Positions 48,189 through 64,000 of a stretch of DNA of 64,000 nt are shown one piece after another. Both the position numbers and the translations under genes were made by a program. A model generated the notes under the pieces. The model was not told the origin of the DNA. It searched no databases and saw only the letters and a program-made list of their open reading frames with translations. The DNA lies in contig OX638375.1 in NCBI GenBank assembly GCA_951813575.1, forward strand, positions 3,946,752-4,010,751. Reading direction: 5' to 3'. How positions within the stretch are numbered: the first letter of the stretch is position 1; the number at the start of each line of letters is the position of its first letter. The stretch is from Candidatus Binatia bacterium (GTDB lineage: Bacteria > Desulfobacterota > Binatia > UBA9968 > JAJDTQ01).

Positions 48189-49244
48189 CTAGTCCTCCTC
48201 GCTGTAGAGGTTCAGGCTCTCCAGCACCGGGCGGTCGGTCACCGAGAACAGGATCGCGGGCTCGGTTTGGGAGTCGTTCTTGAAGTGGTGCCAGTGCCAC
48301 GACGGGACCACGAAGCAGTCCTGCTCCGTCCAGGTCATGGGGTTGCCGTTGTTCTTGTCCTTGCCCGCCACGGTGGTGCCGGCGCCCTGCATCACGTGGT
48401 AGATGGTGCTGCTCGTGTGGCGGTGGGGGCGGGTCGATTCGCCCGGGCGGAGCCATTGGACACGGCAGTCGATGGTGGGCATGGTGGGGCCGCCGGTGAC
48501 GGGGTTGGCGTATTGCAGCAGCACGCCGTCGTGGGGGTCGCCGTCCGAGGATCCCGCCAGTTGCTCCAGCACGGGCAGGGTGTCGCTCCACTTGTAGGTG
48601 TAGGGCAGGGCGTGGTTGCCGGGACTCTCGGTGAGCGGCCGCACCGCGCCGAGGCGGTGGCGGCTGTAGCCCTCGGCCTTGGTCACCGGCTGGGCCGGGC
48701 CCTCGCCGTAGTTCTCGTGGAAGTTGGCGTCCAGGTGGTTCATCAGGTGCACGTCGAGGACGTCGAGCCACACGATGTTGCTCTCGCCCTGGTTGTAATG
48801 GTCATGCCAGGTCCAGCTCGGCGTCAGCACGAGGTCGCCGGGCTCCATGTGCATCTCTTCTCCCTCCACCGTGGTGAACCCGGTGCCGTCGCCTTCCACC
48901 ACGAAACGCAAGGCCGCGGCCGTGTGCCGGTGGCACTCGGCGCGCTCCCCCGGCTTCACGAGTTGCACGGACATCTGGATGGTCCGGGTGGTGGACTTGA
49001 AGGCGGTGAGCCCTGGGTTTACGAGCTGTACCGTGCGGCGCTTGGCGGCCTCGTCGATGTGCCCGAGCTTCACCACCTCGCCGGATTCCATCAGGCAGGA
49101 ATAGACCACCGGCCAGCGCCACAGGTGGGGTTGGAGCGCCGGCGCGGGCTGGCGCGGCTGCCAGTGGCCGGCTAGGGAGTTCTCCGCCATGATGCGGTGC
49201 AGTTCCTCAAGCCGTGGATCGTCCGTGTTGACGGCTTCACTCAT
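48189..49244 (-). CDS. Bicupin, gentisate 1,2-dioxygenase-like (copy 3)
   Basis: A 351-aa two-cupin protein. First-domain ligands are CHRHTAA and WTWHDHYN; second-domain ligands are PHRHTSS and WHWHHFKN, both complete. The N-terminal helix and the PHLWRWPVVYSCLMESGEV stretch match the other copies. The start at 49244 follows AAGGAGACGATC. It lies between the PBP2-fold decarboxylase-like gene and tctABC, flanked on both sides by hairpin repeats. Confidence 0.8.
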   Translation of the reverse strand: MSEAVNTDDPRLEELHRIMAENSLAGHWQPRQPAPALQPHLWRWPVVYSCLMESGEVVKLGHIDEAAKRRTVQLVNPGLTAFKSTTRTIQMSVQLVKPGERAECHRHTAAALRFVVEGDGTGFTTVEGEEMHMEPGDLVLTPSWTWHDHYNQGESNIVWLDVLDVHLMNHLDANFHENYGEGPAQPVTKAEGYSRHRLGAVRPLTESPGNHALPYTYKWSDTLPVLEQLAGSSDGDPHDGVLLQYANPVTGGPTMPTIDCRVQWLRPGESTRPHRHTSSTIYHVMQGAGTTVAGKDKNNGNPMTWTEQDCFVVPSWHWHHFKNDSQTEPAILFSVTDRPVLESLNLYSEED

Positions 49245-49281
49245 GATCGTCTCCTTCACGCTCTGTGGCGGCTCTGTTTGG

Positions 49282-49324
49282 TTGGCGCCCTTCGACTTCG
49301 CTTCGCGAAGCCGAAGGGCGCCAA
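49282..49324. repeat. Dispersed hairpin repeat, CTTCGACTTCGC type (copy C)
   Basis: Arms 49282-49300 (TTGGCGCCCTTCGACTTCG) and 49306-49324 pair over 19 bases with one mismatch around a 5-base loop. It sits between two minus-strand genes and shares its core with the repeats at 45824 and 48080. Confidence 0.7.
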
Positions 49325-49372
49325 TTCGAAAAGCGCCAATTCTTCCTAATCTCCCCGACCCGTGAAATTCTC

Positions 49373-50329
49373 CTACACCCCCTCCAACGCCGCGGCTTCC
49401 GGATGGAAGAAACTCTCGTAGTCGAGTTTCTCCGAGGTCAGGCCGAACTGGTGTGCGAACGTCATCATGGTTTCCAGCGAACGCACGTTGTCCTGGATGT
49501 TGTAGGACCAGTAGTTCTCTCCCATGACCGCCCGCTGCTCGTCGATGGCCGCGGCCACCCACGAGGTGATGAGCACTTCCGGATCCGCGCCGTAGAGCCG
49601 GTCCAGCGCCACGTCGCGGGCTCGGCGGTACGCCTTCAACAGCTCTATGGGTGCGGTCGGATGCTGGTCGACGAAATCCTGCTTGAGGGTAACCATGTGG
49701 CTGATGGGGAAGATCCCCGTGGCCTTGTAGTAGTTGAGCTCCTCGTTCTTGTAGTCCCGGAACAGGCGTCGTACCCGCGGGTCGCGCCGGCTGATGGACG
49801 GCAGCACGTTGGGTTCGATGACCGCGTCGACTTCTCCCCCGAGCAGCATTTCATCCAGGGGCTCACCGGGCTGCGGCCCCAGGATGTGCGGCAGCGGCTC
49901 GACCTCGACGTCCGGCGCCCAGCTCGCGGCCTCCGGCCCGGGCATGCACCAGCGGATGCGCGCGAGGTCCACGCCGTAGTGGTCCTGGAGCGCCCCCCGC
50001 GCCCACACGCCGGCGGTGCTGCTGACGAACACGCGCTTTCCCTCCAGGTCCTTTGGAGTGTCGATGCCCGACGCGTTGTTGACGAAGATGTAGGCCAGCC
50101 GGAACTTGCGGTTGGGGTAAGCCGGGATCGACACGTACGGGTGCTCGCCCTTGCTCTTGGTGCGCATGAGGCCGCCGAAGCTGGCGTCCCACGCGTCGAT
50201 GGTCTCGGGTCCGTGAAAGTCGCTGATCTCGAGATCGAAACCCTCCACCTCGATGCTCCCGTCGACGAAGGGCCGGTTGGTGTCCACCTCGGGCTCCCGG
50301 AAACCGAGCCGGAGCTTGGGGTTCGCCAT
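49373..50329 (-). CDS. 4,5-dihydroxyphthalate decarboxylase-like PBP2-fold protein (copy 1)
   Basis: A 318-aa type-2 binding-fold protein without a signal peptide (MANPKLRLGFREPEVD). The pattern of an early acidic strand, YVSIPAYPNRKFRLAYIFV, DTPKDLEGKRVFVSSTAGVWARGALQD and KATGIFPISHM follows 4,5-dihydroxyphthalate decarboxylase (Pht5/OphC), an enzyme that evolved from binding proteins. The start at 50329 has GGGAGACAGATCC upstream; a longer frame would overlap the bicupin upstream. It lies between two bicupins, consistent with decarboxylation of an aromatic acid in the same pathway. Confidence 0.72.
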   Translation of the reverse strand: MANPKLRLGFREPEVDTNRPFVDGSIEVEGFDLEISDFHGPETIDAWDASFGGLMRTKSKGEHPYVSIPAYPNRKFRLAYIFVNNASGIDTPKDLEGKRVFVSSTAGVWARGALQDHYGVDLARIRWCMPGPEAASWAPDVEVEPLPHILGPQPGEPLDEMLLGGEVDAVIEPNVLPSISRRDPRVRRLFRDYKNEELNYYKATGIFPISHMVTLKQDFVDQHPTAPIELLKAYRRARDVALDRLYGADPEVLITSWVAAAIDEQRAVMGENYWSYNIQDNVRSLETMMTFAHQFGLTSEKLDYESFFHPEAAALEGV

Positions 50330-50358
50330 GGATCTGTCTCCCTTGTGTCTGTGGCGCG

Positions 50359-51393
50359 CTATCCGTCCTGACGCTCCGCCGGCGCGGTCTCCTTCATGAA
50401 AAAGCCGAGCTTGGTCTGTGCCGGCCAGTCGTCGATGGAGAACAGGATGGAATCGCCATGGTGACCGTTCTCGTGATGGTGCCACGTCCAGGCCGGCACC
50501 GCAAAGATGTCTCCCTGGCTCCACTCGAGCCGCTCGCCCTCGATGACGATGGCCCCTTCACCCTCGAACGCGTGGTAGAAGGTGTTGCTGTTGTGGCGGT
50601 GGCTCAGGGTAATCTGCCCCGCTCGCAGGAGTTGCGCGTGCCAGGCGATGGTGGGCAGCGTGGGGCCGCCGTCCACCGGGCTGGCGAGCATCAGGTGGGC
50701 GCCCTCGCAGGGGTCTTCCTCGCCGGCTTCCCGCAAGGCGCCCAGGGCGGCCCGGGTCTCGGCCCAGGGATAGCGCATGGGCGGCAGCGGAAAGGGCCTG
50801 CCGTGGGCCATGGGCCGCGCCAGCCCCCGGGTCCGGTCGCCGTAGCCGCTGGGCTTGCGGATCTCCTGGTAGGGCAGGTCTTCCGGGAGCCTTTCGTTGA
50901 GGTTCACCCCGCCGTTGTAGCCGTTGTCATAGCCGTCCACGTACAGGGCCGGCGCGGATCCCTGGTTCCAGTGGTCATGAAAGGTCCAGGACGGGCTGAT
51001 GATGACGTCGCCGCGCTCCATGGGAAAGGCCTCGAACTCGCAGACGAACGCGGCCTCCCGGGGCGCCTGGCACACCAGCCGCGTTTCGTTGCGCATGTTG
51101 CGGTGACCCTGGGTGCGCTCGCCGGGCATGAGGATCTGGACGTTCATCCAGATGGGAAAGCGGGTGGCCTCGATGCCGGTGACGGAACGCATGCCCGTCA
51201 TGCCCCTTGGGCCTACCGTGACGATTTCGCCGGAACGCAGGAGGCCCTGGTAGATTCCCTCCCAGCGCCAATGAGCGCCGGTGGCGCCGGTGCGCGGCGG
51301 CGCCATGCCCTCGCGCCGCAGCCCGGCGCCGGTCAGGTGGTGCCCGGCCAGGTACTTCTCGAGGTCTTCGTGGGTGCTGCCGACGCCGCTCAT
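50359..51393 (-). CDS. Bicupin, gentisate 1,2-dioxygenase-like (copy 4), N-site altered
   Basis: A 344-aa two-cupin protein. The second domain is complete (SHRHNSN and WTWHHHEN). In the first domain the His pair is changed to GHRNMRN, so the second His is Asn; the later His (SWTFHDHWN) remains. This copy may use only its C-terminal metal site. It ends in SIDDWPAQTKLGFFMKETAPA rather than the usual RPxLExxxLY-EE tail. It lies between an amidohydrolase and the PBP2-fold decarboxylase-like gene on the same strand. Confidence 0.78.
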   Translation of the reverse strand: MSGVGSTHEDLEKYLAGHHLTGAGLRREGMAPPRTGATGAHWRWEGIYQGLLRSGEIVTVGPRGMTGMRSVTGIEATRFPIWMNVQILMPGERTQGHRNMRNETRLVCQAPREAAFVCEFEAFPMERGDVIISPSWTFHDHWNQGSAPALYVDGYDNGYNGGVNLNERLPEDLPYQEIRKPSGYGDRTRGLARPMAHGRPFPLPPMRYPWAETRAALGALREAGEEDPCEGAHLMLASPVDGGPTLPTIAWHAQLLRAGQITLSHRHNSNTFYHAFEGEGAIVIEGERLEWSQGDIFAVPAWTWHHHENGHHGDSILFSIDDWPAQTKLGFFMKETAPAERQDG

Positions 51394-51426
51394 CGCAAGT
51401 CCTCCGTGCGCGTGGGGTCCCTCCGG

Positions 51427-52584
51427 TCAGGCGTCCAGGCCGAAATACTTCACGCAGTTGTCCACCAGCATGGCCTTCTTCTCGTGGGCGGGAATGCCCT
51501 CGAAGTCCTCCTCCATCACCGGGATGGACTTGGGGTACTCGCTGGCGGCGTGGGCGAAGTCCGTGCCCCACATGAGCTTGTCATAGCCGATGCACTCCCG
51601 CCGCATGATGCCGATGGGGTCGTGCAGGAAGCCCCAGTAGTTGTTCTCCCGCAGGTATTCGCTGGGTTTCCTGTCGAGATAGTGCAGGCCCCAGAACTGG
51701 TGGATCATGGGCATGTAACGCTGATAGTGGTCGTCGAGTTGCCACAGGCCGTACTCGAACCAGCCGATCATGGTCTCGGCCCAGTACATCTTGAGCGTCG
51801 GGAAGCGGTCCCACACGCCCGCGAAGGCCATCTGCACCGCGCCCACCATGGCGTCGTTGGTAAAGCGGAAGAAGTAGTTCATGGGCTCCTTGACGTGGAC
51901 GTCGGGACCGGGGCGGCGCTCGTACGTGAACGCGGGCTCGCCGCCCTTGCCGGAACCCATGTTGCCGGTGTTGTGGTTGGTGAGGGCGACGCCCAGGTCC
52001 AGGGCCGCGGCCCAGAAGCGGTCGTCCTCGGCCGTGGGGTAGCCGCGGCCGCTGGGGAACTTGTCGAGCTTGACCCCCTTGAGGCCGAGCCGGGCGCAGT
52101 GCTCCATCTCCCGCACGGCGTCGTCGATCCCGCTGGTGGGCGTCACGCCGATGGGAATGATGCGGTCTGGGGCCGGCGCCATGTACTCTTCGGCCAGGAA
52201 CTCGTTGTAGGCTCGCACCAGTTCGCAATAGAGCTCGCGGTCCTTGGCCTGTTCCAGCACGAAGGAAATCTGTGAGAACACCACTTCGGCATCGATGCCG
52301 TCCTTGTCCTGTTCCTGCAGCCGCTGCTCCGGCGGACCGGTGCCGGCGCAGGTCTCGAAGGTGGGGACCTGGGTGGCCATGTCTTCCTTGTTCACCCGGA
52401 CGCTCCGAGTGACGCCGATGGTGTTGGGCTCCCCTCCGTCCACCACCACCGCATCCGAGCCGTTGGGCATTTTCACGCGTTTGGGCGCGCGTTCGCGCAT
52501 GGACGATGCCACCCGGTCGCGCCAGATGTCGGGGTTGAGGTCGATGTGGCCGTCGGCCGAGATGACGTTGTAGTGACGTGCCAT
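51427..52584 (-). CDS. Amidohydrolase-2 family protein
   Basis: A 385-aa protein: NVISADGHIDLNPDIW at the N-terminus, central ALTNHNTGNMGSG, MYWAETMIGWFEYG, and a C-terminal LMWGTDFAHAASEYP with the catalytic Asp. The start at 52584 gives the family N-terminus and follows a GGAAGGAGCC site; longer frames into the upstream intergenic region are unsupported. It is the first gene of the minus-strand unit running to 42393 and faces the CmcJ-like gene divergently. Confidence 0.82.
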   Translation of the reverse strand: MARHYNVISADGHIDLNPDIWRDRVASSMRERAPKRVKMPNGSDAVVVDGGEPNTIGVTRSVRVNKEDMATQVPTFETCAGTGPPEQRLQEQDKDGIDAEVVFSQISFVLEQAKDRELYCELVRAYNEFLAEEYMAPAPDRIIPIGVTPTSGIDDAVREMEHCARLGLKGVKLDKFPSGRGYPTAEDDRFWAAALDLGVALTNHNTGNMGSGKGGEPAFTYERRPGPDVHVKEPMNYFFRFTNDAMVGAVQMAFAGVWDRFPTLKMYWAETMIGWFEYGLWQLDDHYQRYMPMIHQFWGLHYLDRKPSEYLRENNYWGFLHDPIGIMRRECIGYDKLMWGTDFAHAASEYPKSIPVMEEDFEGIPAHEKKAMLVDNCVKYFGLDA

Positions 52585-54652: not shown

Positions 54653-54681
54653 TTGACACCCACAGGCCGTTGGCCTATTAC
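54653..54681 (+). promoter_or_regulatory. Sigma70-type promoter of the tctC-UbiD operon
   Basis: A perfect TTGACA (54653-54658), 17-base spacer and TATTAC (54676-54681) lie about 80 bases upstream of the tctC start at 54762. It is the best promoter match in the window and precedes a run of same-strand genes to the window end. Confidence 0.7.
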
Positions 54682-54761
54682 CCCACTAGTACCGGCCTTT
54701 GCCGCCCACGCCGGCCCCGTTCATGTCGTCGGCGAAAGATTTCCAGGACAGGGAGGACGTA

Positions 54762-55799
54762 ATGACGAAGAGCCGTTTTTCGCTCGCATCCGTGGTTCTG
54801 GCCCTCGCCGTGGTGACTGCATCCTGGAACATTGCGGGCGCGGCGGAGTTCTACAAAGGGAAGACCGCCCGCATCGTCGTTTCTTCTTCTCCCGGCGGAG
54901 GCTACGACACCTACGCCCGCTACATCGCCCGTCACCTTTACCGGCACCTGCCCGGGAAGCCCCGGATGATCGTGGAGAACCGGCCCGGCGCCGGCGGGCT
55001 TCGGGCGGGAAACTACATCTACCACTCGTCGCGCCAGGACGGCACCGAGATTCTGCATATCGGCGGCTCGTCCGTGATCAAGCAGTTGACGGGTATGAAG
55101 CAGGTCAAGTTCGACGCCCGGAAGTTCCAGTACATCGGCGCTCCCTACGCCGAGGCCACCGTGCTGGTGGTGACCCGGAACTCCGGCATCAGCAGCCTGG
55201 ATGACATCCTCGGCCCCAAGGCGAAGGAAGTCGCGCTGGGCGGCATCAGCGTGGGATCGCCCAATGACGTGGCCGCCATTCTGCTGCGGGACGTGCTCGG
55301 GGGGAAGATCCGGCTGGTGACCGGGTACAAGGGCACGTCGCGAATCAGGCTGGCCATGGACTCGGACGAACTCGACGGAATGTTCAACGGTTGGGCGTCG
55401 TTGAATGCCACGAGCTTCGACAAGCTACAGAGCGGAGAATACAAGGTTCTAATACAGGTCAGTCCGGAGCCCATCAAGGAGCTGGGAGACATCCCCTCCA
55501 TTGCGCAGCTCGCCAAGACCGACGCGCAGCGGCGCCTGGTCCGTCTGACCACCACGGTGCCTTACCAATACGCGCGGTCCTTTCTGGTGGGACCGAAGGT
55601 GCCGAAGGAACGGGTGGCGGAGATCCGCAAGGCATTCAACGCCACCATGACCGATCCGGCCTTTCTTGGGGAAGCCAAAAAGGGGCGCCTCAAGATCAGT
55701 CCCATCAAGGGCACCGACCTGCAGTCGTACGTGAAGGAGTTTCTGGAAATGCCGTCGGAGGAGAAGAAGAAGGTGCTGGGGGTGGTGGCCGGCAAGTGA
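54762..55799 (+). CDS. tctC: Orphan TctC-type periplasmic binding protein
   Basis: A 345-aa Bug/TctC-family binding protein with a signal peptide (LASVVLALAVVTASWNIAGA, cleavage near GAAE). The mature start AEFYKGKTARIVVSSSPGGGYD and IVENRPGAGG are family blocks. GGGAGGACG precedes the ATG at 54762. No tctA or tctB follows, so it would share the membrane subunits at 45867-47862 or act as a sensor. It leads the operon that ends with the UbiD-type enzymes. Confidence 0.85.
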   Translation: MTKSRFSLASVVLALAVVTASWNIAGAAEFYKGKTARIVVSSSPGGGYDTYARYIARHLYRHLPGKPRMIVENRPGAGGLRAGNYIYHSSRQDGTEILHIGGSSVIKQLTGMKQVKFDARKFQYIGAPYAEATVLVVTRNSGISSLDDILGPKAKEVALGGISVGSPNDVAAILLRDVLGGKIRLVTGYKGTSRIRLAMDSDELDGMFNGWASLNATSFDKLQSGEYKVLIQVSPEPIKELGDIPSIAQLAKTDAQRRLVRLTTTVPYQYARSFLVGPKVPKERVAEIRKAFNATMTDPAFLGEAKKGRLKISPIKGTDLQSYVKEFLEMPSEEKKKVLGVVAGK

Positions 55800-55873
55800 C
55801 GGCGGTACCCGGGCGTATGCCGCGCCGGACAAGACACGCTATTGCGCGGCGATCCACGAGAAGGAGTGACATA

Positions 55874-56767
55874 ATGGAACGTTTGAAAGGCATGTACATA
55901 CCGCTGCCGACGCCCTTTACCGACACCGGCGCGGTGGACGAGAACGCGGTGTTGGCGCTGACGGACTTCTACGTGGAAGCCGGCGTGCACGGCCTGTTCG
56001 TGCTGGGTACCTTCGGCCAGGGTCCGGCGCTGACGCCGGACGAGCGCAAGCGGACGGCCAAGATCGTCATCGACCGGGTGGCGGGCCGCATTCCGGTGGT
56101 GATTCACGCGGGGACGGCGGACACTCCCACCACCATCGATCTCGCCCTGGACGCCAGGGACCAGGGGGCCGACGTGGTCGGCGTGGTGCCGCCGTATTAC
56201 TTCGACCACCTCGACGACGAGGTCCTGCAGCACTACGTCAAGGTCTACGAGGCCATCCAGTACCCCATGTTCATCTACAACAACGCGGTGAACAGCGGCT
56301 ATCGCATGACCGCGCCCTGGACCGCGAAGCTGGTGGCGGAAGTCCCGGAGGCCTGCGGCATCAAGATGTCGTTCATCCCACTGGAGCAGCAACTGGCCTT
56401 CGTGCGGGCGCTGCCCGCGAGTTGCGCCGTGTTTTCCGGCTCGGCGACGCTGATCATGCCGGGGGTGTTGTGGGGTCTCGCCGGCTCCATTCATCCGCTG
56501 ACGGTGGCCATCCCCGAGCTGCTGGTGAACCTGTGGGACGCCACCACCACCGGCAAGCTGGAGGAGGCGGTGGAACTGCAGCGCCGGGTCATCGAGTTCA
56601 CAGCGGTCATCGGCGACCTCCAGCGGACCGCGGGCCGTTCGGTGCTGCGGGAGTCGCTGAAGTTGCGGGATCTTCCGGTAGTGGACTTCCCGAGGTGGCC
56701 CACCAAGGATCTGAATAGCGAGCAGGCCACGAGGCTCAGGAACGCGCTGGCCGTGGCGCGGGACTGA
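55874..56767 (+). CDS. DapA-family Schiff-base aldolase/synthase-like protein
   Basis: A 297-aa protein of the dihydrodipicolinate synthase superfamily, closer to classical DapA/N-acetylneuraminate lyase in size than the two NahE-like copies. PLPTPFTDTGAVDE opens the barrel, FVLGTFGQGPALT is the substrate loop, FIYNNAVNSGY holds the usual Tyr region and GIKMSFIPLEQQ carries the Schiff-base Lys. AAGGAGTGACATA precedes the ATG. In this operon it is more likely an aldolase or lyase in catabolism than a lysine-biosynthesis enzyme. Confidence 0.8.
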   Translation: MERLKGMYIPLPTPFTDTGAVDENAVLALTDFYVEAGVHGLFVLGTFGQGPALTPDERKRTAKIVIDRVAGRIPVVIHAGTADTPTTIDLALDARDQGADVVGVVPPYYFDHLDDEVLQHYVKVYEAIQYPMFIYNNAVNSGYRMTAPWTAKLVAEVPEACGIKMSFIPLEQQLAFVRALPASCAVFSGSATLIMPGVLWGLAGSIHPLTVAIPELLVNLWDATTTGKLEEAVELQRRVIEFTAVIGDLQRTAGRSVLRESLKLRDLPVVDFPRWPTKDLNSEQATRLRNALAVARD

Positions 56768-56798
56768 TTTCCTGAGCCAGCACGTAAGGAGAAGAGTC

Positions 56799-57506
56799 AT
56801 GAACGCGAAGGAATGGCGCAACGAGCTTGGTGAGATCGTCAGGGACTATTTCCGGTCCCCGGAATTGGGGCAGTTCTATGAAACCCCCGTCAGCCTGGAG
56901 CGCGCACGGCTCTATTTGTCGCAGCTCGGCATCTACGTCCGCCAGCGGCGGCACTACTGGCCCCAGGTGGCCGCCAACTGTCCCGTGCACCTGGTCAAGC
57001 AGCGCATCATGTCCCACGAGTACGAGGAGTTGGTGGAGGACGACTATTCGGACCGCGGCCACCTGGACCTGATCTTCCGGCAGGGCAGGGAAGTGGGGCT
57101 CAGCGAGGAGGACGTGCTGGGCGCCGAGCCGCTGCCTACCACCCGAGCGGCCATCTACGGCTGGTGGTGGATTGCCCGGACCAAGCCGTGGCAGGAGGCG
57201 CTGGCCGCTTCCACCATCGCCGAGTGGACCAACGACGACCGGCTGCTGGGGGACTTGGGCGGGGGCAACTGCGGCCGGCTGTACGAGCGCTGGAGCCACG
57301 ACCTCAAGTTCACCGACGAGCAGATGCCCAACTTCACCGCCCATCGCGCCGCCGACGAGAAGCACTCCGAGATGTTCCTGGACATCTTCGAGCGGCTGGT
57401 GCCGGAGGGCGCCGAGGAAGGCGTGCTGAGCACCGCCCGGGAGTCCATGGACATTCACCGGGCCTACTTCGGCGGCATGGCCGCGGCCATGGCGCGGCTG
57501 CCGTAG
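56799..57506 (+). CDS. Heme-oxygenase-like diiron (HDO/PqqC-like) protein
   Basis: A 235-aa all-helical protein of the TenA/PqqC/heme-oxygenase-like fold. It shows a HxxxDxxH motif (HRAADEKH, about residues 184-191) and an earlier acidic helix SHEYEELVEDDYSDRGH, the ligand pattern of heme-oxygenase-like diiron oxidases such as CADD and UndA. Such enzymes perform oxidative decarboxylation or carbon-carbon cleavage with oxygen. AAGGAGAAGAGTC lies before the ATG. It lies between a DapA-fold gene and a bicupin with spacings of about 20-30 bases. Substrate unknown. Confidence 0.7.
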   Translation: MNAKEWRNELGEIVRDYFRSPELGQFYETPVSLERARLYLSQLGIYVRQRRHYWPQVAANCPVHLVKQRIMSHEYEELVEDDYSDRGHLDLIFRQGREVGLSEEDVLGAEPLPTTRAAIYGWWWIARTKPWQEALAASTIAEWTNDDRLLGDLGGGNCGRLYERWSHDLKFTDEQMPNFTAHRAADEKHSEMFLDIFERLVPEGAEEGVLSTARESMDIHRAYFGGMAAAMARLP

Positions 57507-57526
57507 GCGCCGACGCGGGTACACCC

Positions 57527-58549
57527 ATGAAGATGGAGTTGAAGGACCTCAACGACTCGCTGGCCGAGCACGACCTCTCGGGCTTCTGGAACACGCGCAC
57601 GCCCGAGCACCAGGACGAGGCGCCGTATCTTTGGAAGTGGCGGGAGGTCTATCCGTGTTTGATGGACGCCAGGGAGTCCGTGGGGCTCGAGCTGGCCGAG
57701 CGAAGGGCCATACGGCTGGTGAACCCCCAGAACCCCACCCGCGCCACCTCCCGGACGCTGCTTTTCACCTTCTCGGTGGTGAACCCCGGTGAGATCGCCC
57801 GGCCGCACCGGCACAACATGGCCGCCATCCGTTTCGTGGTGAAGGGGAGCGGCGCGTTCACGCTGGTGGAGGGGGAGCGCTTCCCCATGCACGAGGGCGA
57901 TCTGATCCTCACCCCCAACTGGACCTGGCACGAGCACCACAACGAGTCGAGTGAACCCATCGTCTGGCTCGACGGCCTTGACGGCCCGCTCATCAACGCG
58001 CTGAACGTGCTCTTCTTCGAGAACTACGAAAAGGACACCCAGGGCGTCACCCGCGCCGACGGCGACGCGCAGATGCGCTACGGTTTCGCCCGCCCGCCGG
58101 CCCACGCGGAATCTCCCGGCCGGGGCCTGCCGTTCTGCTACCGCTGGGAGGACACCGACGCCTCGCTCCACAACATCGTTGACGCCGAGGCGGATCCCTT
58201 CGACGGCCACCTGGTCCGCTACACCAATCCGGTCACCGGCGGCTATACCATGGCGACCCTGTCCTGCGAGGCGCAGATGCTCAAGCCGGGCTGGGTCACC
58301 GGCACCCACCGCCACACCAGCACCGCGCTCTACCACGTGTTCCGCGGCCGCGGCCGCACGGCGGTGGGCGAGGGCTTCCTGGAGTGGGAGAAGGGCGACT
58401 CGTTCATGATCCCCAACTGGCAGTGGCACCGCCACGAGAACCCTTTCGATGAGGAGGCGGTGGTCTTCTCCATGAACGACCGGCCGGTGCTGGAAGCGCT
58501 GGCGCTCTACCGAGAAGAGCAGCGTTCCGGCGGCAACGGCGGCCGATAA
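57527..58549 (+). CDS. Bicupin, gentisate 1,2-dioxygenase-like (copy 5)
   Basis: A 340-aa two-cupin protein. First-domain ligands are PHRHNMA and WTWHEHHN; second-domain ligands are THRHTST and WQWHRHEN, both complete. YLWKWREVYPCLMDARESV matches the pre-cupin segment of copy 3. The start is taken at 57527; an ATG two codons later is equally possible. It lies in the tctC-led operon, 20 bases after the diiron protein and 30 before the first UbiD gene. Confidence 0.8.
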   Translation: MKMELKDLNDSLAEHDLSGFWNTRTPEHQDEAPYLWKWREVYPCLMDARESVGLELAERRAIRLVNPQNPTRATSRTLLFTFSVVNPGEIARPHRHNMAAIRFVVKGSGAFTLVEGERFPMHEGDLILTPNWTWHEHHNESSEPIVWLDGLDGPLINALNVLFFENYEKDTQGVTRADGDAQMRYGFARPPAHAESPGRGLPFCYRWEDTDASLHNIVDAEADPFDGHLVRYTNPVTGGYTMATLSCEAQMLKPGWVTGTHRHTSTALYHVFRGRGRTAVGEGFLEWEKGDSFMIPNWQWHRHENPFDEEAVVFSMNDRPVLEALALYREEQRSGGNGGR

Positions 58550-58579
58550 ACGCAAACCGACAGACCGCGCGAGTTCAAC

Positions 58580-60184
58580 ATGTCCTATCCCGACCTCCAA
58601 GAGCACCTGGCCAACCTGGAATCCGCCGGACTGCTGCTGCGCATCCGCCACCCCATCAACAAGGACACGGAGATGCACCCGCTGGTGCGCTGGCAGTTCC
58701 GCGGCGGCTTGCCGGAGGCGGAGCGCAAGGCCTTTCTGTTCGAGAACGTGGTGGACAGCCACGGCCGCACCTACGACATGCCGGTGGCGGTGGCCGCGCT
58801 GGCCGCCTCTCCACAAGTGTACTCGGTTGGGCTGCAACGCGCGGTGGAGGAGATCCCCGACCTTTGGGCTCACGCGCTGGCCCATCCCATCGAACCCGCC
58901 ATCGTCGATTCCGGACCGGTTCACGAGGTGGTGCTGCAGGGCGCCGACCTGGACGTAGAGGGCGGCGGGCTGCTGCAACTCCCGGTGCCCATCTCCACGC
59001 CGGGTTTCGACAACGCGCCCTACACCACCTGCTCCCACTGGTTCACCAAGGACCCGGAGACGGGCGTCCGCAACCAGGGCAACTACCGCGGGCAGATCAA
59101 GAGTGCGAGGCGCGTGGGCATGTACGCCGGCATGCACCAGCACATCTTTCCGCACTGGGACAAGTGCCGGGAGCAGGGCAAGCCGTTGCACGCCGCGCTG
59201 GTGGTGGGCGCGCCGCCGGTGGTTTCCTACGGCACCGTGCAGAAGGTGCCGCCAGGAGTGGACGAGATGGGCATCGCCGGCGGCCTGGCGGGCGAGCCGG
59301 TCCAACTGGTCCGGTGCAAGACCGTGGATATCGAGGTGCCGGCCAACGCCGAGATCGTCATCGAGGGGCTCATCAACACGGATTTCGTGGAGCCCGAGGG
59401 TCCCTTCGGCGAGTCCCACGGCTACCTGCATCCGCGCACCGTGTCGCCGTTCATGGAGGTGACCGCCATCACCATGAAACGCAAGCCGGTGCTGTGCTCG
59501 TTCATCAGCCAGGTGACGCCCAGCGAATCCAGCGTCATCAAGAAGGTGGGCTACGAACCGTTGCTGCGCCGTTACCTGCGGGACACCATCGGCATCAAGA
59601 GCGTCACCCAGGTGGCCATGCACGAACCCCTCACCAACCTGCGCAAGCTCGTCATCGTGCAGATGAGCAAGCCCGCGGAAGGGGACGTCTGGCGCGCCCT
59701 GAACAGCATCGCCAACTACCAGCACGGGGTCGGCAAGATCGCCATCGCCGTGGACGACGACATCGATCCCCACAACCTTGATGCCGTCTGGTGGGCCATC
59801 TGCTACCGCTCCAAGCCGCACCAGGACGTGCTGATCCTGCCGGGCCGGGTCAAGGGCCACTCGCCGCCCTTCGAGGACGAGGGCCACCTGATCACGGCCA
59901 AGGAGATGTTCTACCAGCCGGCCACCGACTCCGGCATGCTCATCAACGCCATCCTGAAGGAGCCGTTCCCGCCCATCTCGCTGCCCAAGCGCGAGTTCAT
60001 GGAGCACGCCCGGGAACTGTGGAACCGGCTGGAGTTGCCGCCCCTTGAGCCCCAGGCGCCGTGGTACGGCTATTCGCTGGGCCAGTGGGACGACGAGTGG
60101 GAGGAGGAGGCCCAGCTTGCGGTGAAGAGCGACTATCTCCAGACCGGCGCCAAGCTGGCGAAGCGCCGGGTGAAGCCGGGCTGA
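58580..60184 (+). CDS. UbiD-family decarboxylase (copy 1)
   Basis: A 534-aa UbiD-type enzyme, dependent on prenylated FMN, that reversibly decarboxylates aromatic or unsaturated acids. The acidic active-site segment is visible as EPEGPFGESHGY (about residues 273-284), and GNYRGQIKSARRVGMY holds the Arg-containing cofactor region. The C-terminus (WEEEAQLAVKSDYLQTG) is slightly long for the family. Its stop overlaps the next start (TGATG), so it is coupled to the PBP2-fold decarboxylase-like gene. No UbiX-type prenyltransferase is in the window. Confidence 0.88.
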   Translation: MSYPDLQEHLANLESAGLLLRIRHPINKDTEMHPLVRWQFRGGLPEAERKAFLFENVVDSHGRTYDMPVAVAALAASPQVYSVGLQRAVEEIPDLWAHALAHPIEPAIVDSGPVHEVVLQGADLDVEGGGLLQLPVPISTPGFDNAPYTTCSHWFTKDPETGVRNQGNYRGQIKSARRVGMYAGMHQHIFPHWDKCREQGKPLHAALVVGAPPVVSYGTVQKVPPGVDEMGIAGGLAGEPVQLVRCKTVDIEVPANAEIVIEGLINTDFVEPEGPFGESHGYLHPRTVSPFMEVTAITMKRKPVLCSFISQVTPSESSVIKKVGYEPLLRRYLRDTIGIKSVTQVAMHEPLTNLRKLVIVQMSKPAEGDVWRALNSIANYQHGVGKIAIAVDDDIDPHNLDAVWWAICYRSKPHQDVLILPGRVKGHSPPFEDEGHLITAKEMFYQPATDSGMLINAILKEPFPPISLPKREFMEHARELWNRLELPPLEPQAPWYGYSLGQWDDEWEEEAQLAVKSDYLQTGAKLAKRRVKPG

Positions 60185-61191
60185 TGGCCGATCCCTGCCA
60201 CCTCCGTCTCGCCTGCCGCAACTACGACGGCACCAACGCCATCCTCCGCGGCGTCCTGGACGCTCTGGGAATCGAGCTGGAGGTGGTGGAGCAGGTGAGC
60301 GTGCAGGGCATGTTCGCGGCCATGTACCGGGGCGAGTTCGACGTCTCCGAGATGTCGCTGGCCGAGCTGATCTACTACACGTCACGCAACCAGAGCGACT
60401 TCATCGGCATACCGGTGTTCCCGTCGCGCATGTTCCGGCACGGGTTCATCGTCGTCCGGCGCGACGCCGGCGTCGACACGCCCCAGGACCTCGTGGGCAA
60501 GCGGCTCGGGTTCCTGCGCTGGGTGCAGACCGCGGCGGTGTGGATCCGCGGCACGCTGATGAACGAGTACGGGGTCACGCCGTCCAATTCCCAATGGCAC
60601 GCGGCTTCCCTGCACCACTGGGACGACGGCAGCCCCGAGACCTCGGTGAAGCTCCCGGGCGGGGCCGTCATCGAGGTGCTGCAGGGAGAAGGGAGCGCCG
60701 CCGACCGGGCCATGGCGGCGATCCGGGAAGGGCGGCTGGACATGCTGGGGGTTACGGAAACACAGCTTCCGCCGCTCCTGGCCGACGCCGGGTTGAAACG
60801 GCTGTTCGAGGACTACCGGGACATCGAGGCGGAGTATTTCAGGAAGACCCGGATCTTCCCGATCATGCACGTGCTCGCCGTCCGGAAATCGGTGTTGGAG
60901 CAGCACCCGGATGTTTCGGCTGCTCTCTTCGATCTGTTCAGCCAGGCGAAGCGGCAGGCGCGGCAACGGTTCGTCGACATACCGAGCCAGGTGATGGCGT
61001 GGCCGCGGCACGCGCTGGAGCAGGAACGCGCGGTGTTCGGCGGCGACTCGTGCCCCTACGGCCTCGACGCCAACCGCGACGTTCTCAACACGTTCATCGA
61101 GTACTGCGAGGCCCAGGGCATCTGCGAGCGCAACCTCTCGCCGGAGGAACTGTTCGCACCCGAGACCTGGGATTTGACGGAGCAGGAATAG
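60184..61191 (+). CDS. 4,5-dihydroxyphthalate decarboxylase-like PBP2-fold protein (copy 2)
   Basis: A 335-aa type-2 binding-fold protein without a signal peptide. It follows 4,5-dihydroxyphthalate decarboxylase closely: LRLACRNYDGTNAILRG, GEFDVSEMSLAELIYYT, IPVFPSRMFRHGFIVV, and the end GICERNLSPEELFAPETWD. ATG 60184 overlaps the UbiD stop. Being between two UbiD genes supports a decarboxylation role on a polycarboxylated aromatic, though binding-protein-like non-catalytic functions remain possible. Confidence 0.8.
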   Translation: MADPCHLRLACRNYDGTNAILRGVLDALGIELEVVEQVSVQGMFAAMYRGEFDVSEMSLAELIYYTSRNQSDFIGIPVFPSRMFRHGFIVVRRDAGVDTPQDLVGKRLGFLRWVQTAAVWIRGTLMNEYGVTPSNSQWHAASLHHWDDGSPETSVKLPGGAVIEVLQGEGSAADRAMAAIREGRLDMLGVTETQLPPLLADAGLKRLFEDYRDIEAEYFRKTRIFPIMHVLAVRKSVLEQHPDVSAALFDLFSQAKRQARQRFVDIPSQVMAWPRHALEQERAVFGGDSCPYGLDANRDVLNTFIEYCEAQGICERNLSPEELFAPETWDLTEQE

Positions 61192-61212
61192 TTCGATCGA
61201 GAGGTGAGTACG

Positions 61213-62691
61213 ATGGCCAGACCGCAAAGGAAACAGGATACGGAGCTGACCCCCTTCGACGATCTTCGCGGGTGGCTCGCGCGAGTGGAGGAGATCGGAC
61301 AGTTGGAGCGCATCTCCGGCGCCCACTGGGACCTGGAGGTGGGCGCCCTGAACGAGATCATCTGCGAGCGGTTGCCGGCGCCGCCGGCGTTGCTGTTCGA
61401 GAACGTGGCCGGCCATGAGGGCGGCGGGCGCGTCCTCGCCAACATGATGGAGACCATGGAGCGGACCGCGCTCACCCTCGGTCTGCCGCTGGACCTCAGC
61501 ACCATCGAGGTCATCGACCGATTGCGCACCCGGCTGGCCGATCTCACGCCCCTGGAGCCCCGGGTGGTGCCCACGGGCCCGGTGATGGAGAACCGCCATA
61601 CGGGCAAGGACATCAATATCCTCGACATCCCGGTGCCGCGCTGGCACTCGGGCGACGGCGGCCGCTACCTCGGCACCGCGCACCTGGTGGTCACGCGGGA
61701 CCCCGAGACCGGCGAGGAGAACGTCGGCTGCTACCGGGTCATGGTCCACGAGGCCGACAAGCTGGCGCTCTACATCTCGCCGGGCAAGCACGGGCGCATG
61801 CACATGGAGAAGACCCTCAAGGCCGGCAAGCCCGTGCAGGTGGCCATGGCCTTCGGCCAGCATCCGCTGATGTTCGTGGCCGCCTCCCAGGCGGTGCCCC
61901 CGGGCGTCAGCGAGTACGCCTGGGCCGGCGGGCTTGTGGATCAGCCGCTGAGCGTCATCGAGGCGCCGCTCACCGGGCTCCGGGTGCCCGCCGCGGCCGA
62001 GATCGTGGTGGAAGGGGAGATCATCCCGGGCGACACCCGTCCCGAGGGCCCCTTCGGCGAATGGACCGGCTACTACGCCAGTGCCCGCCGGGCCGAGCCG
62101 GTGGTGCAACTGAAGGCCTTCTACCACCGGGACGATCCGATCCTCACCAGCGCGCCGCCGTTCCGTCCCACCATCCACGGCATGTACCGCTCCATGCTGC
62201 GTTCGGCGATGATCTGGAACGGCGTGGAGAGGGGCGGGGTGCCGGACGTCGTCGGCGTATACGTGCCGCCGCCGGCCCAGCGCTTCATGATCGTGGTCTC
62301 CATCCGCCAGCGCTATCCCGGCCACGCCAAGCAGGCGGCGCTCATGGCCGCCCAGTGCCACGCCGGCGCCTACCTTGGCCGCTACGTGGTGGTGGTGGAC
62401 GACGACGTGGACATCACCAACCTGAACGAGGTGGTGTGGGCCATGTGCACCCGCTCCAATCCCGAGGAATCCATCGACATCATCCGCCGTACCTGGAGCG
62501 GGCCGCTGGACCCCATCATCCCCCGCGACAAGAAGGGCCTCAACTCCCGCGCCATCATCGACGCCACCCGGCCCTTCGAGTGGAAGGACCAGTTCCCGGC
62601 GGTGAGCCAGATCGACAAGGAGACCCACGACACAGTGGCCGGCAGGTGGAAGGACGAGCTGGACCGGGTGGTGCGGGGGCACCGGCAATAA
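61213..62691 (+). CDS. UbiD-family decarboxylase (copy 2)
   Basis: A 492-aa UbiD-type prenylated-FMN decarboxylase, normal length. The acidic segment is RPEGPFGEWTGYY (about residues 278-290) and NVGCYRVMVHEADKLALY is the cofactor-side block. LFENVAGHEGGGRVLANMM near the N-terminus is typical. The ATG at 61213 follows GAGAGGTGAG; a GTG at 61204 is possible. It is only distantly similar to copy 1, so the two may act on different intermediates or as a hetero-oligomer. Confidence 0.9.
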   Translation: MARPQRKQDTELTPFDDLRGWLARVEEIGQLERISGAHWDLEVGALNEIICERLPAPPALLFENVAGHEGGGRVLANMMETMERTALTLGLPLDLSTIEVIDRLRTRLADLTPLEPRVVPTGPVMENRHTGKDINILDIPVPRWHSGDGGRYLGTAHLVVTRDPETGEENVGCYRVMVHEADKLALYISPGKHGRMHMEKTLKAGKPVQVAMAFGQHPLMFVAASQAVPPGVSEYAWAGGLVDQPLSVIEAPLTGLRVPAAAEIVVEGEIIPGDTRPEGPFGEWTGYYASARRAEPVVQLKAFYHRDDPILTSAPPFRPTIHGMYRSMLRSAMIWNGVERGGVPDVVGVYVPPPAQRFMIVVSIRQRYPGHAKQAALMAAQCHAGAYLGRYVVVVDDDVDITNLNEVVWAMCTRSNPEESIDIIRRTWSGPLDPIIPRDKKGLNSRAIIDATRPFEWKDQFPAVSQIDKETHDTVAGRWKDELDRVVRGHRQ

Positions 62692-62743
62692 GACCACGGA
62701 CTGGCGTGGGGGCCGCTCCGCGTCCGCCGGGAAGGAACATGAC

Positions 62744-63355
62744 ATGAGCGATGCCATCAGGCTGTACGAATTCGCGACCTCGCCCAACTGCCAGCGGGTG
62801 AAGGTGGTGCTGGAAGAGAAGGGGCTGGCCTACGAGACGGTTCCCGTGGACCTGCGCAAGAAGGAGCAGAAGGATCCGGAGTACCTCGCCATGAACCCCC
62901 ACGGCAAGGTGCCGGTGCTGGTGGACGGCGACACCGTGCTCTACGAGTCGTGCATCATCAACGAGTACCTGGAAGAGAGATACCCGAATCCGTCGTTGCT
63001 GCCCGCCGACCCCTCGGCGCGCGCCCGGATACGCATCCTCATCGACTACGGCATCACCCACACCAACGACAGCCATCAGGCCATCCGCGCGGAGATGATG
63101 AAGCCCGAGGGCGAGCGCGACGCCGACGCCCTGGCCGCGGCCAAGGCCCGGTTTCTCGAAGAGCTGCAACCGCTGGAGCGCGAGCTCGAAGGCCGCGACT
63201 ACATGGCGGGAGACTTCTCGCTGCTCGACGCCGCCCACCTGCCTCGGATCATGCGCCACGTCCAGTGGGGCGTTCTGCCGGACCCGAGCCTGCCGCGCCT
63301 CGATGCTTGGTACCAGCGCATGACCGCGCGTCCGTCTGTCCGTGCCCTTGGCTGA
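62744..63355 (+). CDS. Glutathione S-transferase family protein
   Basis: A 203-aa GST with thioredoxin-fold N-domain (ATSPNCQRVKVVLEEKGL, residues 7-24), the cis-Pro segment GKVPVLVDGD and the glutathione-contacting YESCIINEYLEERYP, then a helical C-domain. Catabolic operons often use GSTs for isomerisation of ring-cleavage products (maleylpyruvate isomerase type), which would fit the gentisate-like cupins. GGGAAGGAAC lies before the ATG. Its end overlaps the start of the next gene. Confidence 0.85.
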   Translation: MSDAIRLYEFATSPNCQRVKVVLEEKGLAYETVPVDLRKKEQKDPEYLAMNPHGKVPVLVDGDTVLYESCIINEYLEERYPNPSLLPADPSARARIRILIDYGITHTNDSHQAIRAEMMKPEGERDADALAAAKARFLEELQPLERELEGRDYMAGDFSLLDAAHLPRIMRHVQWGVLPDPSLPRLDAWYQRMTARPSVRALG

Positions 63356-64000
63356 TTCCCCACGGATCGTCCTCCTCGGCATCGGCCACACAAACGCCCA
63401 TGTCCTGGACATGTGGCGGCGTGAGCCCATCCCGGGCGCCCGCCTCGTGTGCGTGTCGAGTTTCGCCGCCGCCACCTATTCCGGCATGCTGCCCGGCACC
63501 CTTTCGGGCCAGTACCCGCCCGGCAAGCTGGAGATCGACCTGCGGAGCCTCGCCCACGCGGCCAGGGCCGAGCTGGTGGTGGAGCCGGCCCTGAGCGTGG
63601 ACATGGAGAGCCGGACCGTGCGTTTCGAGAAGCATGAGCCGGTCCCGTTCGACGTCCTCTCGGTGGGCGCCGGCTCGGTGCCCAACCGCGCCGGCATCGA
63701 CGTGTCCGCCGGCGCCTGGGTCCCGATCAAGCCCATGCAGACCTTCCTGATGCGCCTCTACGAGCGCCTGCAGGAGCTGAGCCGGCGGGGTCGCGAGGAA
63801 CTACGGGTACTGGTCATCGGCGGCGGGGTGGGCGGCATGGAGATCAGCCTGTGCCTGCCCGCTTACCTGCGCCGTGTACTGGGTGAGACAAGCCACGCCA
63901 TCGCCATCGTGGACGCAGGGGAACGCATCGGCGGCGGTTTGGCGCCGCCGGCCTTGCGCAGGGCCGAGGCGTTGCTGGCGGTCAGGGGAGTCGAGGTGAT
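63342..64000 (+). CDS. FAD-dependent NAD(P)H oxidoreductase, partial (runs off window)
   Basis: A frame open to the window end with an N-terminal Rossmann motif VLLGIGHTNAHVLDMW, like the FAD domain of NDH-2/sulfide-quinone reductases and the flavoprotein fused to SelD. A second dinucleotide site reads VLVIGGGVGGMEIS (about residues 162-175). FDVLSVGAGSVPN precedes it. The start is taken as GTG 63342, overlapping the GST end by 14 bases; a TTG at 63348 is possible. At least 219 residues are present. It probably passes electrons within this operon's pathway, but the partner is unseen. Confidence 0.75.
   Translation, partial: MPLADSPRIVLLGIGHTNAHVLDMWRREPIPGARLVCVSSFAAATYSGMLPGTLSGQYPPGKLEIDLRSLAHAARAELVVEPALSVDMESRTVRFEKHEPVPFDVLSVGAGSVPNRAGIDVSAGAWVPIKPMQTFLMRLYERLQELSRRGREELRVLVIGGGVGGMEISLCLPAYLRRVLGETSHAIAIVDAGERIGGGLAPPALRRAEALLAVRGVEV

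Follow-up and report, generated by a model that had tools for sequence, protein, structure and literature searches.

The stretch of DNA analyzed here (the window: 64,000 nt, G000:C1:3946752-4010751) comes from a genome of the class Binatia assembled as a single contig of 4.21 Mb. It carries a run of nine genes on the plus strand (54762-64484 in window coordinates), whose families we checked by Pfam and NCBIfam profiles and against solved structures. The run opens with a TctC-type solute-binding protein (54762-55799; PF03401, 40.4 bits, cut-off 27), followed by a DapA-fold lyase/aldolase (55874-56767; PF00701, 149 bits), a predicted haem-oxygenase-like diiron oxidase/oxygenase or HDO (56799-57506; PF14518) and a gentisate-dioxygenase-type bicupin (57527-58549; 2d40, E 8.8e-76; 3bu7, E 2.6e-64). 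Two predicted prFMN decarboxylases, both above the PF01977 cut-off of 23.3, come next: UbiD1 (58580-60184; PF01977, 180 bits; 6h6x, E 1.4e-47) and UbiD2 (61213-62691; PF01977, 217 bits; TIGR00148, 309 bits, cut-off 245; 7pda, E 3.2e-104). Between them sits a PBP2-fold protein resembling 4,5-dihydroxyphthalate decarboxylase (60184-61191; 9jp7, E 1e-45 over residues 6-330). A GST (62744-63355; PF13417) and an FAD/NAD(P) oxidoreductase (63342-64000, cut by the window end and extending 484 nt past it to 64484; PF07992, 83 bits for the full protein) complete the set.

Intergenic gaps range from -14 to 74 nt: 74 nt for TctC-DapA, 31 for DapA-HDO, 20 for HDO-bicupin and 30 for bicupin-UbiD1 in the 5' half, then -1 for UbiD1-PBP2, 21 for PBP2-UbiD2, 52 for UbiD2-GST and -14 for GST-flavoprotein. 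The sequence-only reading of this DNA had described a tightly spaced, same-strand run of these families with the PBP2 start overlapping the UbiD1 stop; all nine genes are where it placed them, and the overlap is TGATG. In pairwise comparisons with this genome, the eight genes tested have dN/dS values of 0.03-0.28 and no internal stops: all eight are under purifying selection.

A promoter footprint upstream of the operon

The promoter claimed for this run, TTGACA-N17-TATTAC, is an exact match at 54653-54681 on the plus strand. It holds 10/12 consensus bases and is omitted by a stricter sigma-70 scan because its -10 box lacks the final T. As 0.29 sites this good are expected per window by chance, we dropped the consensus score as proof and turned to footprinting. 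All five genomes of the genus in which this region is assembled keep the element TTGACA-N17-TAT[T/G]AC (four read TATTAC and one TATGAC); it is embedded in an upstream stretch that cannot otherwise be aligned across the genus, and it is this conservation that makes the promoter convincing. It precedes TctC in this genome and in G007, and stands directly before DapA in G001, G004 and G005, indicating that the TctC gene was either inserted between promoter and operon or lost from there. A 70% identical TctC orthologue is found in G007 and none in the loci of the other three; with TctC present in only two of the five upstream regions, import through this protein is not a fixed part of the system.

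A TTGACA box also lies 75-149 nt upstream of HDO in 7/7 genomes of family f3 that carry the core genes described below or their start. The background frequency of the box is 4.9% per 260-nt stretch; the seven genomes are related and hence not independent. The -10 region in f3 differs from that of this genus, and the box is absent upstream of HDO in G018, where HDO occurs without the other core genes. Within the spacer between the promoter boxes, the dyad AGGCC-GTT-GGCCT (54664-54676), imperfectly kept in relatives, is a possible operator.

A four-gene core with changing flanks

The sequence-only reading had proposed searching for the same gene order in other genomes, and that search found co-occurrence, with a core kept across the order and changed flanks. 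In the same genus, the order DapA-HDO-bicupin-UbiD1-PBP2-UbiD2-GST is retained wherever contigs reach (G001, G002, G003, G004, G005, G007 and G008); no orthologous HDO was found in G006, which is 76% complete. Six genomes from three genera of another family (G011, G013, G014, G017, G020 and G027) keep HDO-bicupin-PBP2-UbiD2 between different flanks, and all six loci lack UbiD1. The core across the order is thus HDO, gentisate-dioxygenase-type bicupin, Pht5-like PBP2 protein and UbiD2; UbiD1 is a genus-level insertion, and TctC, GST and the flavoprotein are peripheral. We therefore set aside a pair of UbiDs flanking the PBP2 protein as a defining trait: the arrangement highlighted by the earlier reading is present here and in its genus (g1) and confined to it, while the order-wide core has a single UbiD, after PBP2.

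Other loci point to a deeper unit. HDO adjoins DapA in G009 (family f2), and G028 has the order HDO-bicupin-NMT1-like protein-UbiD-DapA-PqqC-like. A second HDO subfamily, HDO-B, adjoins a second bicupin (bicupin-B) in 10/10 loci, and 7/7 loci of sufficient length continue with a UbiD (of the UbiD2-B type, of the UbiD1 type, or of both); this paralogous module is kept in other genera, with G018 carrying HDO-B, bicupin-B, UbiD2-B, an NMT1 binding protein, UbiD1 and a class II aldolase. The present genome holds a further bicupin-HDO-HDO-TctC-UbiD set at about G000:C1:3883590-3888700. From the core, the HDO-B module and this extra set together, we conclude that what recurs is a triad of HDO, bicupin and UbiD.

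These families are abundant: the 4.2 Mb of this genome yield 34 UbiD, 16 PBP2, about 10 bicupin and 6 HDO matches. They might simply sit side by side without forming a single pathway, and TctC, GST, the flavoprotein and UbiD1 do come and go. We regard such a loose neighborhood as very unlikely: four families stand in the same order between changed flanks in another family, and the HDO-B/bicupin-B/UbiD module runs parallel to them. Outside the operon, 3/15 PBP2 genes of this genome lie near bicupins (0.28 expected, p 0.005) and 0/15 within 5 kb of a UbiD; beyond the operon, neither PBP2 nor bicupin genes of this genome showed an overall tendency to cluster with UbiDs.

Loci of this genus were annotated with a gene caller trained on the window, a self-trained caller having given antisense calls in GC-rich loci, and the contexts of paralogues in this genome were read from individual stretches around the genes. 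Contigs were scanned for HDO relatives with two short HDO peptides that reach close relatives only, so that presence beyond Binatia is possible. The close homologues belong to MAGs labeled Deltaproteobacteria or Candidatus Binatia, some of which look, from their isolate codes (APA, RHO), like products of sponge metagenomes. A search for plasmid-borne HDO relatives found none.

Active sites and relatives of the encoded enzymes

The AlphaFold model of HDO (pLDDT 92.8) is best matched by CADD (TM 0.77-0.84) and PqqC, with UndA and BesC also matching, which predicts a haem-oxygenase-like fold. The HxxxDxxH motif claimed for a diiron protein was located at H182-D186-H189 and is invariant in orthologues. 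So are D81, H88, E142, H182, D186 and H189, three histidines and three carboxylates that correspond in alignment to the ligands in an aminobenzoate synthase of known structure and would form the predicted diiron center. Such a set is typical of HDOs (PMC13108848) and is shared with the superfamily members CADD, UndA, SznF and BesC, from which the window protein differs in that its first carboxylate aligns as D81 rather than Glu and in its catabolic-type operon; either Asp replaces Glu at this first place or E80 may serve instead. Identity to CADD is only 14-15%, and the CADD-type aminobenzoate synthase profile TIGR04305 gives 22.5 bits against a cut-off of 200. In five stretches from other genomes of the order (L136, L137, L138, L139 and L140), two to four HDO genes stand in tandem; their identity to the window HDO is 45-50%, and no bicupin was matched in these stretches.

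MqnA and MqnD are PBP2-fold enzymes of menaquinone synthesis. The operon could accordingly be biosynthetic, with HDO, UbiD and cupin making or modifying a small molecule or cofactor and the PBP2 protein acting like MqnA/MqnD. Both nearest folds of HDO, CADD and PqqC, are biosynthetic, and UbiD enzymes serve biosynthesis too, the BagN/FevL models matching here below cut-off. We nevertheless consider this rather unlikely: genes for a carrier protein, a ligase, a transferase or export are missing from the operon, breakdown is suggested by its aldolase, Pht5-like protein and gentisate-type bicupin, and the many paralogues per family in the genome fit broad catabolism.

Both UbiDs retain the Arg-Glu-Glu network (R170/E273/E278 in UbiD1, R175/E278/E283 in UbiD2), invariant in orthologues, and the genome's sole UbiX (C1:3852595-3853140; TIGR00421, 234 bits) would be available to supply prFMN. 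UbiD2 strongly matches the VdcC and phenylphosphate carboxylase beta models, yet falls below all function-specific cut-offs. It resembles AroY-type, non-oxidative hydroxybenzoate decarboxylases in exceeding the UbiD family cut-off and keeping the catalytic Arg-Glu-Glu; unlike those systems, the operon has no VdcB/VdcD or LpdD-type partner gene, and UbiD2 is linked to predicted O2-using enzymes. The best solved relative of UbiD1 is 6h6x, which we take to be the furan-dicarboxylate decarboxylase HmfF. Pyrrole-2-carboxylate and furandicarboxylate are among the known UbiD substrates (PMC7976604), raising the idea that the same catabolic logic is applied to a heteroaromatic acid of furan, pyrrole or indole type instead of a benzene ring. 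This seems unlikely, with the bicupin closest to gentisate and aminosalicylate dioxygenases, the PBP2 protein to dihydroxyphthalate decarboxylase and UbiD2 to models of phenolic type.

That placement of the bicupin is given by profiles and solved structures alike. Its two metal triads (H94/H96/H135 and H261/H263/H301) are intact and invariant. Both are also complete in 3bu7, whereas 2d40 has lost the second one. The protein scores 279 bits against the NCBIfam gentisate dioxygenase equivalog TIGR02272 (cut-off 442) and may work like a gentisate 1,2-dioxygenase despite this sub-cut-off score. The GST reaches 87.6 bits with the maiA model (cut-off 171) and is perhaps a maleylpyruvate-type isomerase. 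What the operon has in common with the gentisate pathway is a dioxygenase-type bicupin whose iron triads are intact, together with a GST potentially able to isomerize the product; it differs in the bicupin's score, in the missing fumarylpyruvate hydrolase and in its additional HDO and UbiDs. The DapA-fold enzyme has the Schiff-base Lys164 and Tyr135, and its gene is kept in the genus.

The PBP2 protein is homologous over its full length to the solved 4,5-dihydroxyphthalate decarboxylase 9jp7 and 37% identical to the annotated pht5 of Marinibacterium, which lies inside an annotated phthalate operon. This homologue is what the operon has in common with the Pht5-containing pht/oph phthalate pathway, whose dioxygenase, reductase and dihydrodiol dehydrogenase it lacks, having UbiD, HDO and bicupin instead. 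The 16 PBP2 paralogues in this genome argue against one fixed substrate.

A proposed route for aromatic acid breakdown

On balance, we favor the view that this promoter-led operon serves to degrade a carboxylated (hydroxy)aromatic acid aerobically, with HDO, bicupin, PBP2 protein and UbiD2 at its core. The prFMN-dependent UbiD enzymes and the Pht5-like protein would remove carboxylates without O2, and the diiron HDO would carry out an O2-dependent hydroxylation or oxidative decarboxylation to yield a gentisate- or salicylate-like compound, whose ring the bicupin would cleave. In this genus, the GST would isomerize the maleylpyruvate-type product before retro-aldol cleavage by the DapA-fold enzyme. 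The substrate, which may be polycarboxylated, and the order of steps are what we infer from the enzyme families. Stepwise decarboxylation and ring cleavage of an imported substrate had been suggested from the sequence alone; the general idea of decarboxylation plus ring cleavage is supported, as are the operon, its promoter and the enzyme families, while import through TctC is not a fixed feature.

Breakdown of an aromatic acid is supported by the core order persisting between different flanks, the insertion of UbiD1 in one genus and the parallel HDO-B module, as well as by purifying selection, intact active sites, the single UbiX and the promoter footprint. The relatives of the PBP2 protein in a phthalate operon and among solved dihydroxyphthalate decarboxylases, and the proximity of the bicupin to gentisate dioxygenases, argue in the same direction. 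Against it count the lack of a ring-hydroxylating dioxygenase, a CoA ligase and a regulator in the operon, the sub-cut-off scores of bicupin and GST, the absence of PBP2-UbiD clustering elsewhere in the genome and the mainly biosynthetic roles of the HDOs characterized so far (PMC13108848).

The operon is real and conserved and its families are known; their combination was not found described. Searches of open-licence papers, in which absence is weak evidence, found none joining three of UbiD, gentisate dioxygenase, TenA and substrate-binding protein, none naming 7PDA with UbiD and none bringing Binatota and UbiD together; the main text of the main genomic study of Binatota does not contain "aromatic" or "decarboxylase" (PMC8262859).

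UbiD genes abound throughout the order, which may be a greater surprise than the operon. All 35 order genomes searched carry at least 16 UbiD genes, ranging from 16 to at least 43 each, the counts leveling off at about 43, the number of candidates scored per genome (G033 has 125 candidates). Elsewhere in the class, UbiD occurs in only 7/113 genomes, six of them from one family with 3-18 copies, and most other families have none. We tentatively raise the possibility that HDO, bicupin and UbiD together make up a new oxidative route for aromatic acids, in which ipso-hydroxylation or oxidative decarboxylation by HDO would feed gentisate-type cleavage. This route would then represent a single branch of a UbiD-based program of aromatic degradation that extends across this order of Binatia. 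If so, three enzyme families would be joined in one aerobic route, the HDO superfamily would gain a catabolic role, and an uncultured order with tens of UbiD decarboxylases per genome would be a place to look for new (de)carboxylation chemistry.

The well-known aromatic degrader Aromatoleum aromaticum EbN1 may offer a comparison: on its plasmid 2 (L178), three UbiD and two UbiX genes surround an ABC transporter. Several UbiD genes and a substrate-binding protein are shared with the operon, one UbiD being 45% identical to UbiD2; the plasmid cluster differs in that it includes UbiX copies of its own along with a complete ABC transporter, and the stretch examined contains no HDO, bicupin or Pht5-like gene.

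Near the operon, a second cluster on the minus strand of the window (48189-52584) encodes a bicupin, a PBP2 protein, another bicupin and an Amidohydro_2 protein; it also neighbors the operon in G001 and, in part, in G004. Just past the window end (L009:11867-19316), a DndB/DpdB-like protein with a possible HEPN domain, an HSP90-like ATPase and an NYN-like nuclease perhaps form a defense island.
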